Assembly: GCA_013360945.1 (NCBI GenBank)
Contig: JABWAQ010000001.1
Span: forward strand, 1-64,000
Length of the DNA: 64,000 nt
Reading direction: 5' to 3'
Source of the DNA: Candidatus Brocadia sp.
Lineage (GTDB): Bacteria > Planctomycetota > Brocadiia > Brocadiales > Brocadiaceae
The notes under the pieces: model-generated
Seen by the model: only the letters and a program-made list of their open reading frames with translations
What the model was told of the DNA's origin: nothing
Database searches by the model: none
Part shown: one piece after another, positions 2,346 through 59,815 of the stretch
Layout of the letters: every line of letters starts with the position of its first letter
How positions within the stretch are numbered: position 1 is the first letter of the stretch
Translations under genes and position numbers: made by a program

Positions 2346-3767
2346 CTAAAAAAGCTTCCTGAACATGGCCTTTAAGGAATCAAGGGAACCCAATTGGCGT
2401 ATGTTTTTTAAAATAAAGCGGGGTGTCAGAAAAAATTCAAAATTGGCGCGGCGAACGGCATTTTCAAGATCTGCCTTGCTAAGATGCGGATAGGCAATAT
2501 TGGCCTCCCTGGCAACATTGACAGGTTTATAGTCTCCATAAACGAAGAGTTTGTTTTCCTTAGCGATCTTATAAAACTCTGTGCCGGGAAAAGGGTTGGC
2601 GATGTTATACATGACCTGGTCTACCTTGAGCCGTTTGACATCTTCCCTGTTCTTTTTCATGGTATCCATTGTCTCCAATGGCGAAGCGCCAAACATGATA
2701 TTGATCTTTGCATGAATACCGTATTTCCTGACTAATTTTATGGCCTCCTCATTCCTCATAACGTCGATATCTTTCTTTATGTAATCCAATATTTCCTGGT
2801 TAAATGATTCGACGCCGAGATCGATAAACTTGCAATGCGCAGCCGCCATTGCCTTCACAATAGGTTCATTCAGATGGTCTGACCTTGCAGAGCAGCCCCA
2901 CACGATATCCAGATCTTTAATACCTTCACAAATACTGACCGTCCGCTCTTCACCCCAAACAAACTGATCGTCCTGCACGTTTACGGCCTTATAACCCAGG
3001 GATTTCAGCAATTTGAATTCCTCAATAATATTTTCGGGCGACCTCTTTCTTACCGGCGGCTTCTTCCCTGAATAGTGTTTATATTCCAGTTCCCTTGAAA
3101 AACTCAGGGAAGAAGGAACACAATAGATACACCGATACGAGCAGCCACGTGACGTGCAGACGGCCGTGAATGGCCTTTTCCCTAATTTAGGATTGTAATA
3201 GACATCCCTTTCTTCCAGAAGATGTCTGGCAGGGAAGGGGAGTATGTCCAGATCTTCTACCGGTTCTCTGTTAACATTATGAATGATTTTACCATTGCCG
3301 AAAAAAGAGACACTTTCTATACCTTTCATATTTGATTTTGACTCTAAGGCCTTCACGAGCTCAGGCATGGTGTATTCAGGTTCACCCCTTACAACATAGG
3401 TATTGTCATCTATCACAAACTCTGCGGGTCTATCGGACGGTGCAGGGCCGAAAAATATAATCGGCACATTCCCTCTTACCTGACGAATATCTTTGAGTGC
3501 CTGAAAATCGGTGTTTTGGGAGAGATTGACAGAATAGAAGCAATAGACATCGCTCAGGTCTTCTCTTAAAAATGCAAGGAAATGCCCCCGATCCCACTTT
3601 TTAATCGTCGTTTCAATGTATTTAACTTCGTAACCTTCTTTCTCCAGGACGGCGGCAGCACTCAGGAGAAAGATGTTTGGGACATAATAGAGCAGGTATG
3701 CGCAGCCGGCAACCCGTTCGGGGATCTTTCCATCAGTAGGGGGTGGTACGAGAAAGGTAATCTTCAT
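2346..3767 (-). CDS. B12-binding-type radical SAM protein
   Basis: 473 residues with a Rossmann-like N-terminal half (about 1-190) of the cobalamin-binding radical SAM type, then a radical SAM barrel. The 4Fe-4S motif CxxxCxxC is C209-SYR-C213-IY-C216, followed by VDQVMYNIANPFPGTEF and a helical tail. The cobalamin-ligand DxHxxG motif is not clear, as is common in this superfamily. Enzymes of this class methylate or rearrange hopanoids, antibiotics, lipids or sugars. The downstream glycosyltransferase suggests a role in modifying a membrane or surface glycan or lipid, but the substrate is unknown. Confidence 0.85.
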   Translation of the reverse strand: MKITFLVPPPTDGKIPERVAGCAYLLYYVPNIFLLSAAAVLEKEGYEVKYIETTIKKWDRGHFLAFLREDLSDVYCFYSVNLSQNTDFQALKDIRQVRGNVPIIFFGPAPSDRPAEFVIDDNTYVVRGEPEYTMPELVKALESKSNMKGIESVSFFGNGKIIHNVNREPVEDLDILPFPARHLLEERDVYYNPKLGKRPFTAVCTSRGCSYRCIYCVPSSLSFSRELEYKHYSGKKPPVRKRSPENIIEEFKLLKSLGYKAVNVQDDQFVWGEERTVSICEGIKDLDIVWGCSARSDHLNEPIVKAMAAAHCKFIDLGVESFNQEILDYIKKDIDVMRNEEAIKLVRKYGIHAKINIMFGASPLETMDTMKKNREDVKRLKVDQVMYNIANPFPGTEFYKIAKENKLFVYGDYKPVNVAREANIAYPHLSKADLENAVRRANFEFFLTPRFILKNIRQLGSLDSLKAMFRKLF

Positions 3768-4283: not shown

Positions 4284-4628
4284 TCATTTTATACAAAATA
4301 ACTTCTTTAGTTTATTATTGACTTCACCTAGAATTCTCGGTGATAATTCTCCCAATTCACGTTGACAGAGTGAAGTTGTTACAGTCATAAGGCGATGCAA
4401 TCGCAAAGTTGAAGCTACTTTTAAACCTGTTCCATTAAAGTCTTCGTGTGATGTATCGATTATTAAATCTGTTTCGAGTAAATCTAATGGAATTCTGCTA
4501 CTTATAAACGCAAGTATAACGTGAGAGTGTAAACCAATTGGGTTCGTCAAACATACTGCTGGCCGTACTTTTGATGTTGAAAGATCGTCAAAAGGAAAAT
4601 TGACTAATACTACTTTACCCCTAGTCAT
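4284..4628 (-). CDS. PemK/MazF-type endoribonuclease toxin
   Basis: Type II toxin of the MazF/PemK/CcdB fold, expected to cleave mRNA. The protein starts MTRGKVVLVNFPFDDLSTSK and continues with RPAVCL (the strand and Arg that follow it in the family), LAFISSRIP and KVASTLRLHRL, all in family order. An upstream ATG at 4643 exists, but the ATG at 4628 gives the typical start and overlaps the antitoxin stop, suggesting translational coupling. It forms an operon with the antitoxin at 4621-4869. The MITE-like element lies just downstream. Confidence 0.85.
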   Translation of the reverse strand: MTRGKVVLVNFPFDDLSTSKVRPAVCLTNPIGLHSHVILAFISSRIPLDLLETDLIIDTSHEDFNGTGLKVASTLRLHRLMTVTTSLCQRELGELSPRILGEVNNKLKKLFCIK

Positions 4629-4869
4629 GAAATGGTTTCCCATCAGAAGAATTGTAAATATCCTCTTCCGGTTCTTTCAAAAAATCGAAAGCATTACTAA
4701 CACTTGCCAACTTGAGCCATTCCTTTTCATCCATGTTCATTTCTTCTAGCAATAATATAATAACACGAACTTTTTTTGGACCAACAACTGGTAATGGTTC
4801 ATCTAATACAAGTTGCCTTTTTTCATCAATAGTGGCGGTTGTTTCAATGGCTTTTTCTAATTTGTCCAT
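4621..4869 (-). CDS. Antitoxin of the PemK-like module
   Basis: 82 residues beginning MDKLEKAIETTATIDEKRQL. The segment LVLDEPLPVVGPKKVRVIIL is typical of small antitoxins encoded ahead of PemK/MazF-like toxins in cyanobacteria and other bacteria. The C-terminus (EWLKLASVSNAFDFLKEPEEDIY) is acidic and likely binds and blocks the toxin. Gene order antitoxin then toxin, with an 8-nt overlap, is classical. No clear HTH is seen, so autoregulation would depend on the N-terminal strand motif. Start ATG at 4869. Confidence 0.75.
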   Translation of the reverse strand: MDKLEKAIETTATIDEKRQLVLDEPLPVVGPKKVRVIILLLEEMNMDEKEWLKLASVSNAFDFLKEPEEDIYNSSDGKPFHD

Positions 4870-5134
4870 GATATATACTTCCCATATTTTATGTCACAAA
4901 GAACCGCAATTTGGACGTGAGTCCACAGCTTTAATTAATGTCTAGCACTGAGTCAATCACTGATTTTCATCATAGGCGATCTCATTTAAAATATTTTAAT
5001 CCCCAGAAAGATGAGCATGCAGATTGAAAAATATATCACGACTGTCTTAAATTTACAAGGTAATAGAACTACGAAACCTTATAGGAGAGGGCGACTCGCA
5101 CAAAATGAGAAAAATTAAGGCAACAAACATATTT

Positions 5135-23547: not shown

Positions 23548-24102
23548 CATGTACATTGGCTGGTTTAAAAGAGGTTATAAAAGAATATTTACACTGTATT
23601 CTTTATAATACATGAATTTTAATGAGAAAGGTTTGAAAATACCAGATAACTTTATTTAATGACCTTCTGATTGTGAAAAAGCGTAATTGTATGTAATTTA
23701 AGGAATGATGATAGAGCAAATTGTAAAATAAGTTTCATATATGCAAACTTAGATAGTTGTCGCATCTATTCACAAAACGTAAATCAAGTGTTTTGGTATT
23801 TTTGCTAAGTCATTGTTGTTAAAGCAATAAGATCGTGTTTTATTTAAGAATAATTTTTTTGGGAATAACATTTGTGAATATTTGTTTCCCGTCTTGAAAT
23901 AATACAGAATTGACTCTTTGTTTTAAAATCTTCATGAATCTCTCGTATTCCTTTCATTCTACAGGACGATCTCTTTTACCCCCCCATCTTTGCCCGTTCA
24001 GATGAGATATAGTTTATTTATGAATAGTAGTTAAAGCCGGATAGATGAATAGGTAGTGCATGTATAAGTATTTTATGACATTTTTAATTATGGGTGAAAA
24101 AA
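23548..24102. other. AT-rich intergenic region upstream of sbtA
   Basis: About 550 bases, very A+T rich, with no frame that looks like protein. Its right part must carry the sbtA promoter. No confident operator or riboswitch was recognised. Confidence 0.4.
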
Positions 24103-25095
24103 ATGGACGTTGATCTTATTGTAAATAATTTGGTGCACCCTCCCGTTCTCTTCTTTTTTCTTGGAATGATTGCGTCATTTTGCAAATCAGACCTGAAGAT
24201 TCCCGATCCTTTACCCAAGCTTTTTTCGTTGTATTTATTGCTTGCCATAGGATTCCATGGGGGGGTTGAATTGCGTAAGACCGGAATTACCCATGAAGTG
24301 GTATTGGCCCTGTCTGCTGCCATGTTCATGGCTGTTGTTGTGCCACTCTATGCGTTCTTTATTTTAAGAATCAAATTGGATGTTTACAACGCTGCGGCAA
24401 TTGCCGCAACCTACGGTTCCATAAGCGCGGTGACCTACATTACGGCGGTAACTTTTCTTCAAACTTTGGGTCTCGAACCCGGGGGTTACATGATAGCTGC
24501 CTTGGCACTTATGGAATCGCCGGCAATTGTTGTTGGTATTATCCTGGTAAGGATATTTGCACCCAAGAAAGCGGGTGAAGAAAATGGATTTTCCTGGTCT
24601 GAAGTCTTTCGGGAGGCATTCCTGAATGGTTCTGTATTGCTGATAACCGGTAGTCTCTTGATAGGATTGGCTTCCGGAGAAGAGGGGTGGGATACGTTAA
24701 AGCCTTTTACCAAGGATATCTTTAAAGGTATGCTCAGTTTTTTTCTCCTTGACATGGGGCTTTTGGCGGCAAAGAGGATTGGTGATGTAAAAAGTGCTGG
24801 ATTTTTTTTACCCCCTTTTGCTATATTGATGCCGTTGTTTAATGGGTGCATCGGTATCGTGATGGCAAGATTTATTGGTTTGCAGCCGGAAAATGCCCTT
24901 ATGCTTTCTGTACTTTGCGCCAGTGCCTCATACATTGCGGTTCCCGCTGCCATGAGATTGTCGGTTCCCGAGGCAAATCCAAGTTTGTTTGTCCCCATGT
25001 CGTTAGCGATTACGTTTCCGTTTAACATTATCATAGGGATACCATTGTACTATTATTTAATAAAGAGGGTTAATGCGTTAATTCCAGCACTTTAG
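24103..25095 (+). CDS. sbtA: Sodium-dependent bicarbonate transporter SbtA
   Basis: About 330 residues and ten or so membrane helices, of the SbtA (DUF897) family: FFFLGMIASFCKSDLKIPDP and FSLYLLLAIGFHGGVELRKT near the start, the repeat GYMIAALALMESPAIVVGII, and the second-half inverted repeat ending AVPAAMRLSVPEANPSLFVP. It imports bicarbonate with sodium. In an autotroph fixing CO2 (acetyl-CoA pathway in anammox) this would supply inorganic carbon. ATG 24103, six bases after GGGTGA, is preferred over GTG at 24094. The PII-like sbtB follows by 11 bp. Confidence 0.92.
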   Translation: MDVDLIVNNLVHPPVLFFFLGMIASFCKSDLKIPDPLPKLFSLYLLLAIGFHGGVELRKTGITHEVVLALSAAMFMAVVVPLYAFFILRIKLDVYNAAAIAATYGSISAVTYITAVTFLQTLGLEPGGYMIAALALMESPAIVVGIILVRIFAPKKAGEENGFSWSEVFREAFLNGSVLLITGSLLIGLASGEEGWDTLKPFTKDIFKGMLSFFLLDMGLLAAKRIGDVKSAGFFLPPFAILMPLFNGCIGIVMARFIGLQPENALMLSVLCASASYIAVPAAMRLSVPEANPSLFVPMSLAITFPFNIIIGIPLYYYLIKRVNALIPAL

Positions 25096-25106
25096 GGGTA
25101 AAAATT

Positions 25107-25403
25107 ATGAAACCAGCATCAAAAGTAGAAATAATAATCGATTCTCTTGAAGTTAAACGTGTCGTTAAGTTTCTTGATGAGATAGGGGTGTCTGGCTATA
25201 GCATTATTAATGATGTAATTGGAAAAGGCCATAGAGGTGAAAGGTCTGGGTTTGAATTAACCGATCTCTTTAAAAATAGTTACATCATGGTAGTATGCGA
25301 TGAAAAAGAAATGCACAAGATCGTAGAGGCGATACGGCCGATTATTAAGAAGTTTGGCGGTGTGTGCATCGTTTCCGATGTTGTGATGAGGATACATAGG
25401 TAA
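25107..25403 (+). CDS. sbtB: PII-like bicarbonate regulator SbtB
   Basis: 98-residue PII-fold protein with a T-loop-like GKGHRGERSGFELTDLFKNS stretch and the strand KFGGVCIVSDV. In cyanobacteria SbtB binds cAMP/AMP/ATP and gates SbtA. Its position directly after sbtA makes the same job very likely here. The C-terminal CxxxxC redox extension of some cyanobacterial SbtB proteins is absent. Confidence 0.88.
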   Translation: MKPASKVEIIIDSLEVKRVVKFLDEIGVSGYSIINDVIGKGHRGERSGFELTDLFKNSYIMVVCDEKEMHKIVEAIRPIIKKFGGVCIVSDVVMRIHR

Positions 25404-26265: not shown

Positions 26266-27558
26266 ATGTCAAAGATAATTACTGAAAAATCAAAAAAGGC
26301 TTTTGCCGAGGCACAAAATTTTATACCGGGTGGTGTTAATAGCCCTGTCAGGGCCTTTGGCGCGGTAGGGGGTACCCCAATATTTATAAAGTCAGGTTCG
26401 GGTTGTTATTTGACGGATGTTGACGGTAATAGGTACGTGGATTACGTTGGTTCTTGGGGGCCGCTTATCCTGGGGCATGCTGATCCAAGGGTGGTAAAAA
26501 GGATTAACGAAGCAGTTACCAATGGGACGAGTTACGGCGCTCCAACAGAGTTGGAGATAAAACTGGCACAACTCATCGGGGAGGCCATGCCTTCCATTGA
26601 AAAGGTAAGGATGGTCAACTCAGGCACAGAGGCCACGATGAGCGCTATCCGTGTGGCAAGGGGATTTACCAGGCGTGATGCGGTAATTAAGTTTGAGGGT
26701 TGTTATCATGGACATGTGGATAGCATGCTGATTCAGGCAGGTTCGGGCGCGACAACGTTAGGGACACCCACCAGTCCGGGTATCCCGCAGGATTTTGTCA
26801 AGCACACCATTTCTCTTCCCTATAATGATACAGATGCGGTACATGAGATTTGCGCAAAACGAGGAAAGGACATTGCCTGTGTCATTGTTGAAGCAGTTGC
26901 CGGTAATATGGGGGTTGTGCCGCCTAAGAAAGGTTATTTGGAGGGGTTGAGAGAGATAACAGAAAAACATGGTATTGTGCTGATATTTGACGAAGTAATG
27001 ACTGGCTTCAGGGTTGCACACGGTGGAGTACAGTCGCTTTATCATATTACGCCCGACTTAACCACATTAGGAAAGATTATTGGCGGTGGTCTTCCCGTTG
27101 GGGCGTATGGTGGGAAGAAAGAGATTATGGACAGCATCTCTCCTGTGGGTCCTATATATCAGGCTGGTACGTTATCAGGCAATCCCGTGGCTATGACCGC
27201 CGGTATCGCCACGTTGGAAATACTCAGAGACAACGCTATTTATAAAACCCTGGAGGAGAAGTCAAAGCGGCTGGCTGCCGGTATGGAAAAGGCATGTAAG
27301 GATACCGGAGTGCCTGCGTATCATACCCGTGTAGGTTCAATGTTGTGTACCTTTTTCACCGATCAACCGGTTACCGATTATACCACCGCTATGAAAAGTG
27401 ACACAAGACGGTATGCAAAGTTCTTCCACGGCATGCTGGAAAGAGGATTTTATTTTGCGCCATCACAGTTTGAAGCGGTTTTTGTGTCCACAGCGCATGG
27501 TGAAAAGGAAATTGATGCAACCATTGATGCGTTTAAGGATGTAATGAAAGGTTTTTAA
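26266..27558 (+). CDS. hemL: Glutamate-1-semialdehyde 2,1-aminomutase
   Basis: PLP enzyme of the C5 route to 5-aminolevulinate, feeding haem and corrinoid synthesis, a heavy demand in cytochrome-rich anammox cells. About 430 residues from ATG 26266. Upstream in-frame sequence is unrelated, and [20 protein letters not shown] starts the family-like text. Visible are [37 protein letters not shown] and the PLP lysine in [16 protein letters not shown]. Divergent from purN with about 120 bp between starts. It precedes the PhoU-like gene by 6 bp. Confidence 0.96.
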
Positions 27559-27564
27559 AATAAT

Positions 27565-28194
27565 ATGGCAATCGCAGGCAGAGACGAAAGCTTAAAGGCT
27601 TTATTGGATCGTATCAGAAAAATGTACTACAGGACAGAGTCAATTTTGATTCTTTGTATGGATGGTTTTATGAAACATAAGATCGCATCGATTGACGAGG
27701 CAAAGAAGATAAACAAGGCCATTTATGAGGAAGAGAATGAATTGATACGTCTGCTCAGCAGTAAGGCAGCGGAGCCTGAAATGGACAAGGAGTTGATAAA
27801 ATCCCTGATGGCGGTCGTAGGTCATATTGAAATGGCAACGAATGGGCTGGATGGTATTCTTCAAAATATAAAGAATAAAGTGGCTGGAGGGATACTGTTC
27901 AGCGATAAGGGTGTAAATGAGATATCCCAGCTCTTTAAAGAGACTCTTGATATGTTAAAGACTGCTGGCGATATTATCTTGACTAAAAATGAAGTCCTTA
28001 AGAGATATATCGACGATAAATATAAAAGCTTCAATCAAATCGCCGATACGTATTCTGAAGAGCATAATGACCGATTAATTAAGGGTATATGTCAACCCCA
28101 AAGCTCCTCGCTGTATTTGAATATTGTCGATTCTCTGTCGAAGGTTGTTTGGCATGTGAAGCTAGCCACTGATAGACTTTTTGAAAGAAAATAA
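27565..28194 (+). CDS. PhoU-like helical protein
   Basis: 209 residues, almost all helical. The text resembles the PhoU/DUF47 fold: EENELIRLLSSKAAEPEMDK, VGHIEMATNGLDGILQNIKN and a second similar bundle ending in HVKLATDRLFERK. PhoU proteins bind metals and control phosphate uptake. The classical E/D-x3-D metal motifs are not clearly conserved, so the family call is tentative. It ends about 230 bp before the ATP synthase cluster and starts 6 bp after hemL. Confidence 0.5.
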   Translation: MAIAGRDESLKALLDRIRKMYYRTESILILCMDGFMKHKIASIDEAKKINKAIYEEENELIRLLSSKAAEPEMDKELIKSLMAVVGHIEMATNGLDGILQNIKNKVAGGILFSDKGVNEISQLFKETLDMLKTAGDIILTKNEVLKRYIDDKYKSFNQIADTYSEEHNDRLIKGICQPQSSSLYLNIVDSLSKVVWHVKLATDRLFERK

Positions 28195-28425
28195 CGGCTT
28201 ACACTTGTTTTTTTTGATCTTTTCTCTTTGTGTAACACACTTCGGAAAAGAAATAGTGCAAAATATAAAACAAAGACAAAATTTATACTTTCTGGCAGTA
28301 TCGCATTGAAAAAAGGATAGCAAAGACAGGTTTTCCCTGAAATTAAGTTGTTTTTTAAAAAAGGAATGTAAGTTGTGAAAAATCGTTGTGGTGTAAAAAC
28401 AAATAGTTAATAGGGTGTTAATATT

Positions 28426-28659
28426 TTGCTTTTCAACAAAAACAAAAATGAGGCATATCGTATTATAGGGTCAGTTGGAAGCTTTGGTTTTACGACGGCA
28501 GGCGCCATGGCTGGCGGATATTTTTTAGGCAGTTATTTGGATAAAAAATTTAACACCACCCCGTGGTGTATGTTGTCTTTGATGATGCTGGGGATTGTAG
28601 GAAGTTTTATAGAATTATTTAAGTTGATAAAGAAGTTGTCCAGAGAAAACAATAGATAA
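28426..28659 (+). CDS. atpZ: AtpZ-like ATP synthase gene cluster protein
   Basis: 77 residues, two membrane helices, with GGYFLGSYLDKKFNTTPWCM, the block typical of the AtpZ/AtpI family (ATPase_gene1). These proteins help c-ring assembly and may move divalent ions. The start is TTG 28426; no strong ribosome site is visible. It opens the F-ATPase cluster. The GGDEF regulator begins 31 bp downstream. Confidence 0.75.
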   Translation: MLFNKNKNEAYRIIGSVGSFGFTTAGAMAGGYFLGSYLDKKFNTTPWCMLSLMMLGIVGSFIELFKLIKKLSRENNR

Positions 28660-28690
28660 CTGTGTAATTCATTGAATGTGCCAATAAATC

Positions 28691-29764
28691 ATGATAAACG
28701 AGAAGGATTTAGAAATATTAATTGTTGGAGATGACCTTGCCATTGCGGCTGATGTGGAGCGTATCCTTAAAAAGGGTGGATACCGGAGTTCTTCCGTTCG
28801 CAAAGGCAAAGAGGCTATCGACTATCTGAGCAGAAATAAAGATAAATCGATGATTGTTATTAGTGATAGTGATATGCCGGAAATGAATGGTTTCCAGCTT
28901 TGTCAACAGATCAAGATGAACGGCGACCCTGAAGAAATACCGGTTGTTCTTCTTGTTTTATTTTCCAGCCCAGATGCTTTGATTAAATGTTTCCAATGTG
29001 GGGCTGATAGTTTTATCCCTAAACCACTTGACGGGGAGGTTCTTTTATCCCGGCTACATTATATCCTCAAAAACAATAAATTAAGAAAAGAATCAAAAAA
29101 CCGGTTTAACATGGAGGTTTTTTGTGGCGAGCAGATGCAGTATATCAATACGAACAGTATGCAGACCGCAGACATCCTTTTTTCTACGTATGATGCCTTT
29201 GCGCAAAAGAATCGCGAACTTGGACAGATATCAAGCGAATTAAATAAATTAAGAGAAAGAGAGGCAAAGCTAAGTGGTCTGTCTTTCAAAGACGAACTGA
29301 CCGATACCTTCAACAGAAAGGTGTTTATCGCCCTTACTGAGCAACAATTGAAAGTCGCAAATCGCACAAAAAGGGAGATGTCTCTTTTCACTTTTGATAT
29401 AGATAGTTTAAAGTTGATTAATGACACTATGGGACATAAGACGGGTGATGAGGCATTGAAGCATGTTGCCGCTGTCTTAAAAAGAACTTTTCGGCAGGCA
29501 GATATCATTGGCCGTATTGGTGGAGATGAGTTTGCCGCACTGTTGATAGAAGCGAAGAAGGACAGCGAGAAGAATATTTCTGATCGTTTGAAGAAAAATC
29601 TTGCGGATTATATTGTAGAGGAATCTCTCCGTTACAAATTGTCAATAACTATTGCTAGTGTAAGTTACGATCCCGAATATCATTGTACTATTGATGAACT
29701 CCTGAGCTGGGCTGATACGCTCATGTCTAATCAAAGGCGGGGAAATACAGGAATGAGTGATTAG
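28691..29764 (+). CDS. Receiver-GGDEF diguanylate cyclase
   Basis: 357 residues. Receiver domain (about 8-125) with the acceptor Asp in MIVISDSDMPEMNGFQ and the Lys in FIPKPLDGE. A helical linker (about 130-195) leads to a GGDEF domain (about 200-350) with an intact GGDEF active site in GRIGGDEFAALL. The RQAD five residues before it is a complete RxxD inhibitory site, so the enzyme should make c-di-GMP with product feedback. It sits between the atpZ-like and atpI-like genes, in the same direction with short gaps. That placement is most unusual. It suggests c-di-GMP output tied to ATP synthase expression. Confidence 0.92.
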   Translation: MINEKDLEILIVGDDLAIAADVERILKKGGYRSSSVRKGKEAIDYLSRNKDKSMIVISDSDMPEMNGFQLCQQIKMNGDPEEIPVVLLVLFSSPDALIKCFQCGADSFIPKPLDGEVLLSRLHYILKNNKLRKESKNRFNMEVFCGEQMQYINTNSMQTADILFSTYDAFAQKNRELGQISSELNKLREREAKLSGLSFKDELTDTFNRKVFIALTEQQLKVANRTKREMSLFTFDIDSLKLINDTMGHKTGDEALKHVAAVLKRTFRQADIIGRIGGDEFAALLIEAKKDSEKNISDRLKKNLADYIVEESLRYKLSITIASVSYDPEYHCTIDELLSWADTLMSNQRRGNTGMSD

Positions 29765-29849
29765 CATTGGGGCAAATTAATAATTTCGTAACGGTATTAA
29801 TTTTATCGACCGGCAGATGTTGGCCGCGACGGTGGTATTGTGGTAGTTT

Positions 29850-30290
29850 ATGGATAATTTCATCCCAAAAGGCAATATAGAATCGCCTTCATTGTTTGAC
29901 GAAGGTTTTCCTGGCCGGGTGTTCAGGACATCGGTTCTTTTATCGTTGATTTTGATTGCCGGTTCATTGTCGTATATGTCCTATATCCTAACAATAAGCC
30001 TTGCCATAGGATGTTTTACCAGTATTACTTTATTCAAGACGACCTTGTGGGCGATACAATATGCAGTGCGGCATAAGAGAGAGAAAATTAAGGGTTTTTT
30101 CCTTAAAATAAGCTTCTTGAAGTATTTTATCATAGGAACAATGTTGCTTTCTGCCTGCCTGCTCCTGGAGATTAATGTTGTCGCTATGTCACTTGGGTTA
30201 AGCATCGTAGTGACAGTAATTATTATGAAGGTGGGGAGCAGATTGTTTGTAAATTATTTGAACAAGTCGATTAAAGTGCCAAAATATTGA
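29850..30290 (+). CDS. atpI: AtpI-like membrane protein
   Basis: 146 residues with four predicted membrane helices: FRTSVLLSLILIAGSLSYMS, ILTISLAIGCFTSITLFKTT, FIIGTMLLSACLLLEINVVA and LGLSIVVTVIIMKVGSRLF. Position directly before atpB and size match the AtpI/AtpR assembly factor slot, although the sequence itself is not strongly diagnostic. Confidence 0.65.
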   Translation: MDNFIPKGNIESPSLFDEGFPGRVFRTSVLLSLILIAGSLSYMSYILTISLAIGCFTSITLFKTTLWAIQYAVRHKREKIKGFFLKISFLKYFIIGTMLLSACLLLEINVVAMSLGLSIVVTVIIMKVGSRLFVNYLNKSIKVPKY

Positions 30291-30335
30291 GGTATGTTTC
30301 TTGATTTTATAAACAAGAAAGGAGTGCAGTTCTAG

Positions 30336-31124
30336 ATGTCTGCTGGTGGAGGAAGTGAAGGCACAACAGAATTACCGTCGTTTGTAGATTTAGTGCCTAT
30401 TAATGTCCATAGTCAATTTTTGGGATTAACGAAGCACGAATGGGTGCCCATTATCATGTCTGCGACATTAATTATCTTTTTGGGCATATTTTCTATTGTT
30501 GCCACAAGGAGGTTAAAAAAAATGCCGGGAGGGCTTCAGTCATTCCTGGAAATAATCGTGGAGGGGCTTGAGGGTTTTACCAGATCGCAGATGGGGCGTG
30601 TTGCAGAACGATTTGTTCCGTTTATAGGGACGTTCTTTATCTATATATTTGCGATGAATATGATGGGGCAGATACCCTTCTTTCATTCACCCACGAGCAA
30701 TTTGAATACAACGATTGCCCTGGCGTTAATCGTTTTTTTTGTTACCCAATATCAGGGTATAAAGAATAATGGAATCTTCGGTTATCTCAGGCATATGGCC
30801 GGGAAACCGCTCTGGCTTGCCCCGCTCACCTTTCCATTGCACATCATGCAGGAGGTGCTTTCCCGCCCCCTGTCGCTCTCCATGCGTCTCTTCGGTAATA
30901 TTATGGGGGAGGATACGGTTATTGCTATATTCATTGGGTTTTCACCTTTTTTGTTTGGACTTATCCCGGTTCCGATACACCTGCCCATGGTCTTTCTTGC
31001 CTTGCTGGGAAGCACCATTCAGGCCATGATATTTTCTCTGCTCGCAAGTTTTTATATCGCCGGCGCCATCGGAGTGCATGAAGAAGAAGATGAGCATCGC
31101 CACCATCATCATCATTCAAAATAA
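30336..31124 (+). CDS. atpB: F-type ATP synthase subunit a
   Basis: 262 residues of the stator channel subunit, with EVLSRPLSLSMRLFGNIMGE holding the essential Arg in the RLFGN block, plus five or so helices (AMNMMGQIPFFHSP). AGGAG precedes ATG 30336. A natural histidine- and acid-rich C-terminal tail (HEEEDEHRHHHHHSK) extends past the usual end; it could bind metal or help assembly. Confidence 0.95.
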   Translation: MSAGGGSEGTTELPSFVDLVPINVHSQFLGLTKHEWVPIIMSATLIIFLGIFSIVATRRLKKMPGGLQSFLEIIVEGLEGFTRSQMGRVAERFVPFIGTFFIYIFAMNMMGQIPFFHSPTSNLNTTIALALIVFFVTQYQGIKNNGIFGYLRHMAGKPLWLAPLTFPLHIMQEVLSRPLSLSMRLFGNIMGEDTVIAIFIGFSPFLFGLIPVPIHLPMVFLALLGSTIQAMIFSLLASFYIAGAIGVHEEEDEHRHHHHHSK

Positions 31125-31224
31125 ATGAAAAATTGCGTTAATAAGAAGATTTATTATTAATAGAGATACATTAAAAATATTGTAACTACGTCCGTTTTTT
31201 AATTTTTTGAAAGGGGGGGAGGGT

Positions 31225-31548
31225 ATGAGTTATTTTTCTGTATTGGTGATTGGAATATCGGTGATTGTTATAGCCATCTTTGGCTGTGCCTTGGCGCAGG
31301 CAAAGGTGGTTCAGAGTTCTGTTGAGGGGATGGCACGGCAGCCGGCAGTCTCAGGTAAGATACAGCTCGCCATGATTATTGGTCTGGCGTTTGTCGAATC
31401 CCTGACGATTTATTCATTAATGCTGTCGTTCATCTTACTTGGTAAGCTCCCGCCAACACAAGATGTGCTTGAGATTTTTAGGCAATCCCCAAAACAGGAA
31501 CTCCTATCTTCAGCTAACGAGCATATCCGCTCAGTTGTGAAAAATTGA
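31225..31548 (+). CDS. atpE: F-type ATP synthase subunit c (copy 1, with C-terminal extension)
   Basis: Rotor ring subunit with two helices. ATG 31225 (MSYFSVLVIG) is preferred; a TTG at 31207 lies within the ribosome site. TM1 holds GCALAQAKVV and TM2 the ion-binding [14 protein letters not shown] (Glu), with the RQP loop MARQPAVSGKI between. The pattern Q in TM1 plus ES and Y in TM2 resembles sodium-binding c subunits, but residue 67-equivalent is Leu, so H+ or Na+ use is undecided. A tail of about 30 residues (TQDVLEIFRQSPKQELLSSA) beyond TM2 is not present in copy 2. Confidence 0.93.
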   Translation: MSYFSVLVIGISVIVIAIFGCALAQAKVVQSSVEGMARQPAVSGKIQLAMIIGLAFVESLTIYSLMLSFILLGKLPPTQDVLEIFRQSPKQELLSSANEHIRSVVKN

Positions 31549-31680: not shown

Positions 31681-31953
31681 GTGATTTATTTTGCATTGTT
31701 GACAATAGCGGTGGCTATGTTGGCTGTTGCAGCCTTTGGTTGTGGTCTCGGACAGGGAATCGCAGTTTTTGGCGCTGCCAGCGGCATGGCAAGACAACCC
31801 GAGATGGCAGGGAAGATACAGCTTGTTATGTTTGTTGGTTTGGCATTTATTGAATCGTTAACCATTTACTCCTTGATGGTGTCCTTTATTTTGTTGGGGA
31901 AACTGCCCAAGACAGAGGCTATCCTTGAGGTAATTCAACACGCCGTTAAATAG
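31681..31953 (+). CDS. atpE: F-type ATP synthase subunit c (copy 2)
   Basis: 90 residues of the canonical length. AAAGGAGG precedes GTG 31681. TM1 text [20 protein letters not shown] and TM2 text [20 protein letters not shown] keep the same Gln, Glu-Ser and Tyr as copy 1. The copies share the loop MARQP and most of TM2 but differ throughout TM1 and in the C-terminal tail, so they are diverged paralogues, not a recent duplication. A hetero-oligomeric or exchangeable c-ring is possible. Confidence 0.95.
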
Positions 31954-31971: not shown

Positions 31972-32481
31972 TTGGATATCTTAAATACCCTGGGTGTTAA
32001 TGTTAAGGCCGTTATTATACAGGCCGTCGGTTTTCTCATACTGCTCTTCGTCCTCAAAAAATATCTTTTTGGCAAGATATCTAATATGATAAAAGAGCGA
32101 AGCGAAGGAATTAAGAGTATCTATGCAAAGATTGAAGACGAAAGAGCAGAGGCAGAACGGCTGAAAAGTGAGTTTCAGAAGAAGCTTTTTGATGCGGAAG
32201 CAGATGCGACAAAGAGAATTCAGGAAGCCATTAATGAAGGGAATCGGATCAGCGAAGGGATTATCAAGCACTCGCATGAAGCGGCTGAGGAATTGATGGC
32301 AAAGGCGCGGGAAGTAATCGAGCAGGAAAGGAAGAAGGCCATTGCCGAAATCAGGGATCAGGTGGTAACCCTTTCCATGTTAGCTTCTTCCAGGATTATT
32401 CAACAATCAATAAGTTCGCAGACGGCAGAAAAGCTCGTCGACGGCGTTATTGAAGAAATAGGGGAATTGCGTGTTAGATAA
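31972..32481 (+). CDS. atpF: F-type ATP synthase subunit b
   Basis: Peripheral stalk subunit, 169 residues: one N-terminal membrane helix (VIIQAVGFLILLFVLKKYLF) followed by a long charged helix (ERAEAERLKSEFQKKLFDAE). Starts at TTG 31972 after GGGAGGTGA. It overlaps atpH by 11 nt, so the stalk subunits are translationally coupled. Confidence 0.94.
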   Translation: MDILNTLGVNVKAVIIQAVGFLILLFVLKKYLFGKISNMIKERSEGIKSIYAKIEDERAEAERLKSEFQKKLFDAEADATKRIQEAINEGNRISEGIIKHSHEAAEELMAKAREVIEQERKKAIAEIRDQVVTLSMLASSRIIQQSISSQTAEKLVDGVIEEIGELRVR

Positions 32482-56941: not shown

Positions 56942-59815
56942 ATGATAAATGAAATATTAACAAAGAGATTTCTTGTGATTGCTTTAGGCGCTAAAGATGC
57001 CGAATATTCTCCTTTCCGGGATTATGTTGCCCATGCGGGCTATGATGTTTCTTTCGTTTCTGACGAAAGAGACTTCTATGGGCTATTGGAGGGTAAGAAA
57101 TGTTTCGATGTAATTTTAGTAGATATGGAGTGTGAACCCGATAAACAGATCGCTACGGTTCAAAGCGTGAAAAAGTATTATCCTCACACGGTGGTAGTTC
57201 CTATCATAAATGAAAGCGGGATGGATACTTCATTAGAAATGGGGATGTCGAATCTGGGCTTTTATGATCATATAACGAAACCCATTCATTGGGATAGTAT
57301 AAAGGCGGTACTGAACAGAGTATCCCAGAAGATTGATACCGATCGTATGTTGAAGAGGATGGAGCAGGAACGAGAGATCATTCTGAATATAAACCGTCTG
57401 GTGCTTTCTCACATGAGTTACAAGGATTTTTGCAATGCGTTATGCCTTGAACTCAGAAAGATTATAGACTTTGACTATTTTAGTTTGGTATCGAGGATGG
57501 AATCTTCAGGTGAATACTATACGTATGTATTGGATTTAATGCAAAATATCCACAAATTTCATAGAGGTAATGAATTGAAAACAGCCGTGGAAAGTTTTCT
57601 CTTTAATGATGTATCAAAGTCCAATAAGATCATTATTAATAACGAAACGCATAAAACTGGGGATAATGATAAAAGTCCCGTATTGTATGACGGCGCCAAA
57701 TCTTACATGGTTTACCCGCTCTTTATCAATAATACCTTAATTGGTTGTATAAATATTCTGAGTAAGAATTATGCACGTTTTTCTGAAATCCATAGTAATC
57801 TTATAGATCAGGTATCGGCGCAAATTACGGTTACATTAATGAACGCAATGTTGTTGGACAGCCTTACCGCGTCGGAAGAGAAATACAGGGATTTGGTTGA
57901 GAATGCGCCAGAGATTATATTCAAGATGGATAGTCACGGAAAGTTTCTGCATGTTAATAAATTGGGATTAGAGATTCTTGGGTATAGCGCGAAAGAAATG
58001 ACCTCGATGTATCTATTTGATCTTGTTGCTGACGAGCAGAGGACTATGATTAAGGGTCAATATGACACCACGGTTAACTCGCGGAAGGATAATAATTTGG
58101 TTATGACCTTGTTAACAAAGAATGGCAAACGATTGGATGCGGAAATAAAATGCTCTATCCAGTACGATACTATTCTGAATGATTATATGGTCAGGGCCTT
58201 TGTTCGTGATGTAACAGAGCGACGCGTATTAGAAAAAAGGATATTTGAATATCAGGAACGTTTAAGGGGTTCATTAAAAGAGAAATCGCAGAAGTTGAGT
58301 GAAACCGAAAAAGAAATGTATAATCAAAGAAAATTCCTGGATGCCCTGATACAAAATACCAATGTGTATGTAGTCACGATAACTTCCAGGGGAGAAATTG
58401 TGTTCGTGAACCGTGCTATGGAGAAGGGATTTGGCTACACGATAGATGATGTCCTTGGGAAATCTGTGGTCGATGTTTTTATTCCACAGGATAAAATAGA
58501 AGAATTGTTCGATGACATACAGATGCTCTTAAGTGGAAACAAGGGTGAACAGATCGAGATACCCTTTGCATCACGGGATCATCAGGTTAGAGATATTTTA
58601 TGGATTGTGACATATCTTAAGGATGAATGGAATGCAATCTCGAACATTAACTTATTTGGTTACGATATTACTGAGCAAAAGATATTGAAGGAACAACTTG
58701 TCCAGGCTGAAAAGATGAGTAGCGTTGGGACGATGATTTCAGGGGTAGCTCATGAACTCAATAATCCCTTGTCGATTATCGTAAATTTCAGTGAGCTTAT
58801 GATGATGTGTGATAACCTATCAAAGAGCGCAGCGAATCGATTGCGGCATATAATGGATGCATCCCAGCGCTGTACCCGTATTGTGGAGAACTTACTCACG
58901 TTTGCAACAAAACGAAAAACCGTCAGAAAGGGGCAATACGTTAGCATTAACGATGTTCTAAAAGATGCCCTCGAATTAAAAATCAACGACCTTCGGGTTA
59001 ACAACATTGAGGTCGGACAATCACTTTCCCAAACCTTGCCCAGGACACTGGCTGATCGGGTGCAGCTTATGCAAGTCTTTATCAATCTTATTAATAATGC
59101 CTACGATGCGATGAAATATGCGCATGGGAAGGGGGTTTTAACTATTCGTACGCTTCAAAGGGGAGATAAGATTGTTGTAGAATTTGAGGATAACGGGCCG
59201 GGTATTCTTGAGCCAGAAAAATTGTTTACTCCCTTTTACACAACGAAAGAGGTTGGAAAAGGTACGGGTTTAGGTTTGGCTGTAAGTTATGGTATTATAA
59301 AAGAACATGGCGGGACAATTGTTGGCAAAAATTGTCAGAAAGGTGCCATTTTTACTGTTACGCTTCCTATCAAGGTTCAGGCAAACAAAGAGGTCAAATT
59401 TCCTGTAAAAAAGGATTATAATTTGAGGGGTTTACGCATATTGTTAGTAGAAGATGAGGTAGGTATTGCAGAATCCTGTAACGAATTGTTGACGGCGAAA
59501 GGTTGTAATGCAACATCTGTATTCAGTGCAAGAGATGCGATGCAGGCTTTTCAGGAGGAGCAATTTGATATAGTTATTATGGACTTGAAAATGCCAGGGG
59601 AAGTATCTGGAATCCAGTTTTATGAATGGATGATGAGTAATATACCTGCTTTGAAAGAGAAGGTAATCTTGATGACTGGGGACACTCTTTCCCCTGAATT
59701 TAAGACATTTATTGAGAAGAGCAGGGTGCCTGTTATTCCAAAACCATTCCGTTTTAATACTTTCCTTGAAAAGATAGGTCTAACCGCAAAAAAGGCGGGA
59801 TTAATCCAAGTGTGA
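56942..59815 (+). CDS. Hybrid sensor histidine kinase (REC-GAF-PAS-PAS-HK-REC)
   Basis: 957 residues, cytosolic. N-terminal receiver-like domain (about 10-125; acceptor region FDVILVDMECEPD, Lys in ITKPIH, but the upstream acidic pair is weak), GAF (about 150-300), PAS (about 315-430), second PAS (about 465-580), HisKA (MSSVGTMISGVAHELNNPLS, His near 610), HATPase_c (FINLINNAYDAM, DNGPGI, GKGTGLGLAV) and a C-terminal receiver (ILLVEDEVGIAE, VIMDLKMPGEV, IPKPFRF). NtrB-like kinase core. A phosphorelay partner is not adjacent; the NtrC-type regulator at 63363 is the nearest candidate. Confidence 0.92.
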   Translation: MINEILTKRFLVIALGAKDAEYSPFRDYVAHAGYDVSFVSDERDFYGLLEGKKCFDVILVDMECEPDKQIATVQSVKKYYPHTVVVPIINESGMDTSLEMGMSNLGFYDHITKPIHWDSIKAVLNRVSQKIDTDRMLKRMEQEREIILNINRLVLSHMSYKDFCNALCLELRKIIDFDYFSLVSRMESSGEYYTYVLDLMQNIHKFHRGNELKTAVESFLFNDVSKSNKIIINNETHKTGDNDKSPVLYDGAKSYMVYPLFINNTLIGCINILSKNYARFSEIHSNLIDQVSAQITVTLMNAMLLDSLTASEEKYRDLVENAPEIIFKMDSHGKFLHVNKLGLEILGYSAKEMTSMYLFDLVADEQRTMIKGQYDTTVNSRKDNNLVMTLLTKNGKRLDAEIKCSIQYDTILNDYMVRAFVRDVTERRVLEKRIFEYQERLRGSLKEKSQKLSETEKEMYNQRKFLDALIQNTNVYVVTITSRGEIVFVNRAMEKGFGYTIDDVLGKSVVDVFIPQDKIEELFDDIQMLLSGNKGEQIEIPFASRDHQVRDILWIVTYLKDEWNAISNINLFGYDITEQKILKEQLVQAEKMSSVGTMISGVAHELNNPLSIIVNFSELMMMCDNLSKSAANRLRHIMDASQRCTRIVENLLTFATKRKTVRKGQYVSINDVLKDALELKINDLRVNNIEVGQSLSQTLPRTLADRVQLMQVFINLINNAYDAMKYAHGKGVLTIRTLQRGDKIVVEFEDNGPGILEPEKLFTPFYTTKEVGKGTGLGLAVSYGIIKEHGGTIVGKNCQKGAIFTVTLPIKVQANKEVKFPVKKDYNLRGLRILLVEDEVGIAESCNELLTAKGCNATSVFSARDAMQAFQEEQFDIVIMDLKMPGEVSGIQFYEWMMSNIPALKEKVILMTGDTLSPEFKTFIEKSRVPVIPKPFRFNTFLEKIGLTAKKAGLIQV

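Follow-up and report, generated by a model that had tools for sequence, protein, structure and literature searches.

A rare WspR-like receiver-GGDEF gene between atpZ and atpI in an anammox ATP synthase cluster, within an F0 block of apparently mosaic ancestry

WspR from the Wsp system of Pseudomonas combines a receiver, a stalk and a GGDEF domain with an RxxD site, and its regulation is possible without phosphorylation (PMC2270323). The F-ATPase-1 cluster of Candidatus Kuenenia stuttgartiensis (kuste3787-3796) consists of an atpZ-like gene, an unknown ORF (atpI) and the genes for subunits a, c, c, b, delta, alpha, gamma, beta and epsilon (PMC2936114). A diguanylate cyclase in an ATP synthase operon is a link that does not appear in the titles and abstract openings of the literature searched. 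The window (the whole 64,000-nt stretch of Candidatus Brocadia sp. DNA analysed here) has the atp gene order and the two c subunits of the Kuenenia cluster, in which, however, no diguanylate cyclase gene separates the first two genes (PMC2936114). In the window, a gene for a WspR-like receiver-GGDEF protein, a putative diguanylate cyclase (DGC), is found at this position (Table 1).

All genes of the string are located on the plus strand, and subunit c2 is followed by atpF, H, A, G, D and C. The layout described in the first-pass annotation was recovered throughout: the DGC gene lies between the atpZ-like gene and atpI/atpB, the gaps before and after it measure 31 bp (28660-28690) and 85 bp, and the GGDEF motif (residues 277-281 of the translation) has an RxxD motif (RQAD, 268-271) five residues upstream. 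The atpI-like gene has no Pfam match and is the positional equivalent of the unknown ORF of Kuenenia cluster 1 (PMC2936114).

Table 1. Features of the atp locus in the window.
Feature	Position	Strand	Remarks
PhoU-like protein gene (209 aa)	27565..28194	+	usually precedes atpZ across the family; just outside the imported block (putative)
AT-rich leader before atpZ	28195..28425	+	231 nt; left edge of the putative imported block
atpZ-like (ATPase_gene1)	28426..28659	+	PF09527, E 1.6e-13
WspR-like receiver-GGDEF protein, putative diguanylate cyclase (DGC), 357 aa	28691..29764	+	PF00072, PF00990
Spacer DGC-atpI, 85 nt	29765..29849	+	conserved with G019: 77% over 84 nt
atpI-like membrane protein gene	29850..30290	+	assigned by position and conservation
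atpB (subunit a)	30336..31124	+	PF00119, E 2e-53
Extra subunit c (c1, 107 aa)	31225..31548	+	PF00137
Subunit c (c2, 90 aa)	31681..31953	+	PF00137
atpF	31972..32481	+	right edge of the putative imported block inside, near 32100

The distribution of the DGC was analyzed in 33 genomes of the family, one genome per species; genus codes are those given by the tool, with g1 being the window's own genus and g10 the genus of G019. An ortholog was found in two of these genomes, the window's own and G019 (77% identity). Besides these two, only Kuenenia-like paralogues in G040 and G041 passed E 1e-45 in the family search. A profile search in 392 genomes of the phylum yielded no further orthologs, and a scan of genome contigs added none, revealing only more distant or partial homologues. 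No ortholog was found in ten genomes of the same genus; in the nine same-genus genomes in which a typical F-type cluster was found, atpZ and atpI overlap, touch, or lie a few to tens of bases apart. The two genes are adjacent or nearly so at all other readable junctions in the family, with the exception of G047, which carries a PhoU-like gene there amid dispersed repeats. In G019, a contig carrying atpZ breaks off within the DGC gene downstream of it; the rest of the C-terminus opens the next contig, followed by a homologous spacer and atpI. The two contigs abut within the gene in the same frame, so that the G019 copy, though interrupted by a contig break, has the arrangement of the window, with atpZ before and the spacer and atpI after. 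In two other g10 genomes, G044 and G045, a spacer of 17 nt separates atpZ from atpI and there is no DGC; G044 and G019 share the same sequence as far as the insertion point (GATAGATAGCTTTTCGGCTTATT), so G044 represents a good empty site. Absence of the gene from the same place in relatives, which the first-pass annotation had named as grounds for rejecting its own proposal, is thus largely what we observed. The DGC occupies this place in only two of the 33 genomes, and is a real but rare, recently moved WspR-like gene that is not among the conserved genes of the atp operon. A conserved role argued from synteny was ruled out, as nearly all relatives lack the gene.

The paralogues in G040 and G041 form tandem pairs of full-length proteins (37–39% identity) and adjoin genes for CheB, a CheA-receiver hybrid, HD-GYP and CheW, plus an MCP gene in G041 (names read from the translations, with no profile search behind them). 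They share this chemosensory setting with CheA and CheB with WspR, and their location in a Wsp-like cluster suggests that the window DGC may stem from a cluster of this type. Linkage to a CheA-type kinase is seen for these paralogues only. In contrast to WspR, the window gene has atp genes on both sides and no adjoining kinase, the sole kinase among the window ORFs scanned being a hybrid at 56942-59815, 27 kb from the DGC.

Comparison with relatives indicates a mosaic ancestry for about 3.9 kb that include the leader, atpZ, the DGC gene, atpI, atpB, the extra subunit c, the second c and half of atpF. The PurN, HemL, PhoU-like, AtpH and AtpA proteins have their highest identity to g1 (AtpH and AtpA about equally to g6), whereas AtpZ, AtpI, AtpB, c1 and mostly c2 are nearest to g10. 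For example, the PhoU-like protein is 77% identical to its counterpart in G008 from the window's genus vs. 59% in G019; the atpZ-like protein shows 79% identity to G019, G043 and G046 vs. 62–74% to g1, the atpI-like protein 77% to G019 vs. 54–63% to g1, and AtpB 88% to G019 vs. 79–83% to g1. Synonymous divergence (dS) between the window and G019 is 0.30 for the DGC, 0.38–0.53 for atpZ, I, B, c1 and c2, and 0.61 for atpF, as against approximately 1.0 for hemL and phoU and 1.07–1.52 for atpH, A, G and D. It is low again in atpC (0.46), which means that exchange was more complex than the transfer of a single block. Nucleotide identity to G019 and G044 drops from 86–95% to 65% at about position 32100, within atpF. 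At the left edge, the 231-nt leader matches the leaders found at the same place in G014, G016, G023 and G043 (g10, g7 and g5), whereas the g1 genomes have 3–9 nt there.

Phylogenetic tests separate the same segments. In the tree of atpZ, atpI and atpB the window groups with G019 and G044 (SH-aLRT 92), and its placement with g1, g2, g4 and g6 is rejected (p-AU 1.4e-5). For purN, hemL and phoU, in turn, placement of the window with g10 is rejected (p-AU 5.5e-5), and for atpH and atpA its union with G019 and G044 is weakly rejected (p-AU 0.026) and that with G043 and G045 rejected (p-AU 0.002). Two further AU tests were set aside: the one joining the window to g1 for the F0 block (p = 3e-10), as G005 and G008 already break g1 there, and the one joining it to g10 for atpH and atpA, as g10 is not one clade. 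A block that is g10-like (dS 0.3–0.6) between g1-like flanks points to the entry of about 3.9 kb into the window species by homologous recombination. The c1 copy is present in G019, G043–G045, G014, G016, G020, G040 and G041 and was not found in the g1 loci of the relatives examined; we conclude that the import would have brought both the DGC and the second subunit c into a genus in which, among the genomes read, neither is otherwise seen. Over most of the block the window is about as close to G019 as to G044, yet of these two only G019 has the DGC, so there must have been either additional exchange or a precise loss.

Both domains of the DGC were recognized far beyond chance, Response_reg (PF00072) at residues 9-122 (E 6e-20) and GGDEF (PF00990) at residues 200-350 (E 3e-31), the latter with an intact GG[DE]EF and a score of 108.8 bits compared to a curated cut-off of 23.8. 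An AlphaFold2 model based on six sequences (pLDDT 77, pTM 0.45) comprises a (beta-alpha)5 receiver, a beta hairpin (139-154), a helix (157-195) and a GGDEF fold, in line with the receiver-stalk-GGDEF architecture of the WspR type; the low pTM makes the domain arrangement uncertain. The domain order and the RxxD I-site are common to both proteins, whereas the hairpin before the stalk helix distinguishes the window protein from WspR. Foldseek with this model retrieved full-length WspR on top (3i5a, 3bre), followed by PleD and DgcR, and the best sequence match among solved structures is PleD (1.6e-24).

The catalytic residues of PleD from Caulobacter are matched in the window protein by GGDEF and by D236, K241, N244 and D253, which are invariant among the aligned paralogues and align to PleD D327, K332, N335 and D344, the metal and guanine contacts. 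Unlike PleD, the window protein has one receiver instead of two and lacks the AKxxGRN motif, which in PleD contains the C-terminal phosphate-binding Lys and Arg (K442/R446). Its C-terminus reads ADTLMSNQRRGNTGMSD, with the Lys replaced and GRN absent; the paralogues are likewise without GRN. The receiver retains the phospho-Asp D59 and K111, but unlike WspR it is devoid of one acidic residue and of the switch Thr/Ser: G13 takes the place of the first acidic-pocket residue, which is E in G019 and in the paralogues, and the switch position is V89 (V in G019 too). Given G13, V89 and the missing AKxxGRN ending, catalysis is likely, though not certain, and phospho-control is doubtful; loss of the K442/R446 equivalent may even have left the enzyme inactive. 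The earlier description as a full diguanylate cyclase is thus borne out for the domains, but not for the last-helix motif ADxxxYxAKxxGRN, which is missing, nor for the receiver pocket with its two substitutions.

The most plausible scenario, to which we assign a probability of roughly 0.68, is that an orphan WspR/PleD-type DGC was imported with the F0 block, is co-transcribed with the atp genes and feeds the c-di-GMP pool. The domains, the position, the rarity of the gene, the mosaic make-up of the block and the residual selection were established computationally; co-transcription, enzyme activity and its output are inferred. The gene would have been inserted between atpZ and atpI in a lineage of the anammox family related to G019, and would then have been imported, together with the block of F0 genes, to the window species by homologous recombination. 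The gene and the ATP synthase genes probably share a transcript that starts from the leader upstream of atpZ, in which the operon's own promoter likely sits, so the level of the protein would follow atp expression. The isolating promoter or terminator that would have spoken against a shared transcript gave no signal above chance on either flank of the gene, with counts near those of shuffled sequences, such scans being weak tests; no terminator was found in the 85-nt spacer, and an Rfam search of 27500-31300 had no matches up to E 1. The enzyme would probably contribute to the general pool of c-di-GMP that the PilZ proteins of the cell sense, with product inhibition at the RxxD site and with weak or no phospho-control because of the damaged receiver pocket. 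The genome has 13 GGDEF and eight PilZ matches, so c-di-GMP signalling probably exists in this organism without the window DGC. The DGC more likely rides on the expression of the atp cluster than controls ATP synthesis.

An unlikely scenario, yet the best surviving competitor, is that the gene only hitch-hikes in the F0 block and is becoming a non-functional pseudogene. Among residues invariant in four paralogues, the window copy departs at 12, including the acidic-pocket change E13G, and the G019 copy at four; this difference is suggestive only (two-sided sign test, approximately 0.08). The dN/dS ratio of the DGC (0.29–0.46) is higher than that of most atp genes, and the substitutions and this ratio are signs of relaxed constraint in the window protein. 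No clear Shine-Dalgarno sequence was found before the window gene, which may therefore be poorly translated, whereas the G019 copy has a clear one (GAGGAAG). However, the reading frame has stayed open over 357 codons despite 16% nucleotide divergence from G019, and the differences between the two copies are distributed over codon positions as 37/45/80 (chi-square of about 19), a third-position excess showing that some selection has acted on the frame since the copies diverged. Moreover, GGDEF, IND, the metal Asp and RxxD are all intact in the alignment with the paralogues.

Much less probable is a dedicated regulator, that is, c-di-GMP made at the locus acting on ATP synthase or its expression and thereby coupling energy status to sessile life, in agreement with the first-pass suggestion that c-di-GMP is tied to ATP synthase output. 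The shared operon and strand, the short gaps and the retention of the gene in two distinct species with the above codon-position bias would fit such a role. Since c-di-GMP binds F1-like bacterial export ATPases such as FliI (PMC4591828), a direct action on ATP synthase is possible by analogy. On the other hand, the ten same-genus genomes and most of the rest of the family run the same ATPase without this DGC gene, the presence of the gene tracks a horizontally moved F0 block, and its protein bears signs of relaxed constraint with an eroded receiver pocket and C-terminal motif. What stands of the original proposal is the DGC in the atp string, also found in G019, while nothing that we found points to c-di-GMP controlling ATP synthase. 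We give just as little credence to the idea that the F0 block and the DGC are a selected cassette that wires c-di-GMP to ATP synthase expression or to the F-type ATPase and spreads between anammox genera by recombination. A chimeric assembly or bin of a g1 genome and a g10-like genome, in line with the 5.3% contamination of G000 and with the different closest relatives of block and flanks, is highly improbable, as the 137-kb contig is g1-like on both sides of the block, g1 and g10 sequences at the right edge are well under 85% identical and thus too divergent for an assembler switch, and the atpZ-DGC-atpI order was found independently in G019.

If the DGC is expressed with ATP synthase, a signal for sessility would be made in step with the energy machinery, which is relevant to anammox biofilms. 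More firmly, anammox genera appear to have exchanged a portion of an ATP synthase operon (subunits a, c and a second c) along with a signalling gene, a caution against inferring function from operon position alone.

Several additional features of these loci were observed. The PhoU-like gene is located directly 5' of atpZ in most of the family and could connect phosphate status with ATP synthase; PF01895 (PhoU) is matched by 13 of 18 family members of this protein (best E 1.4e-6). It occurs twice in G045 (locus L186) and three times in G047 (locus L190), where one copy lies between atpZ and atpI. In L190, intergenic short palindromic dispersed repeats (GCCGAAGGC..CCTAATTTA) surround the atpZ insertion site (3049-3619 and 4527-4900); the G047 junction repeat (GTCGCCGAAGGCCTAATTTA), searched with 3 mismatches allowed, has no occurrence in the window. 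The c1 and c2 proteins differ in length (107 and 90 aa) and both retain the glutamate motif (FVES/FIES), so a mixed c-ring is possible; such a pair of c genes is known in Kuenenia (PMC2936114) and absent from the other g1 loci read. A genome from another family of the order has a second atp cluster (L066, G035:C68) with atpD-atpC before atpZ-atpI-atpB-c, whose atpZ, atpI and atpB are 74–86% identical to those of the window, suggesting wider gene exchange or misbinning. Finally, a bicarbonate transporter of the SbtA type (PF05982, E 2e-122) and, after it, a 98-aa ORF for its putative PII-like partner SbtB are encoded at positions 24094-25403, and this transporter region beside purN is kept in several g1 genomes.
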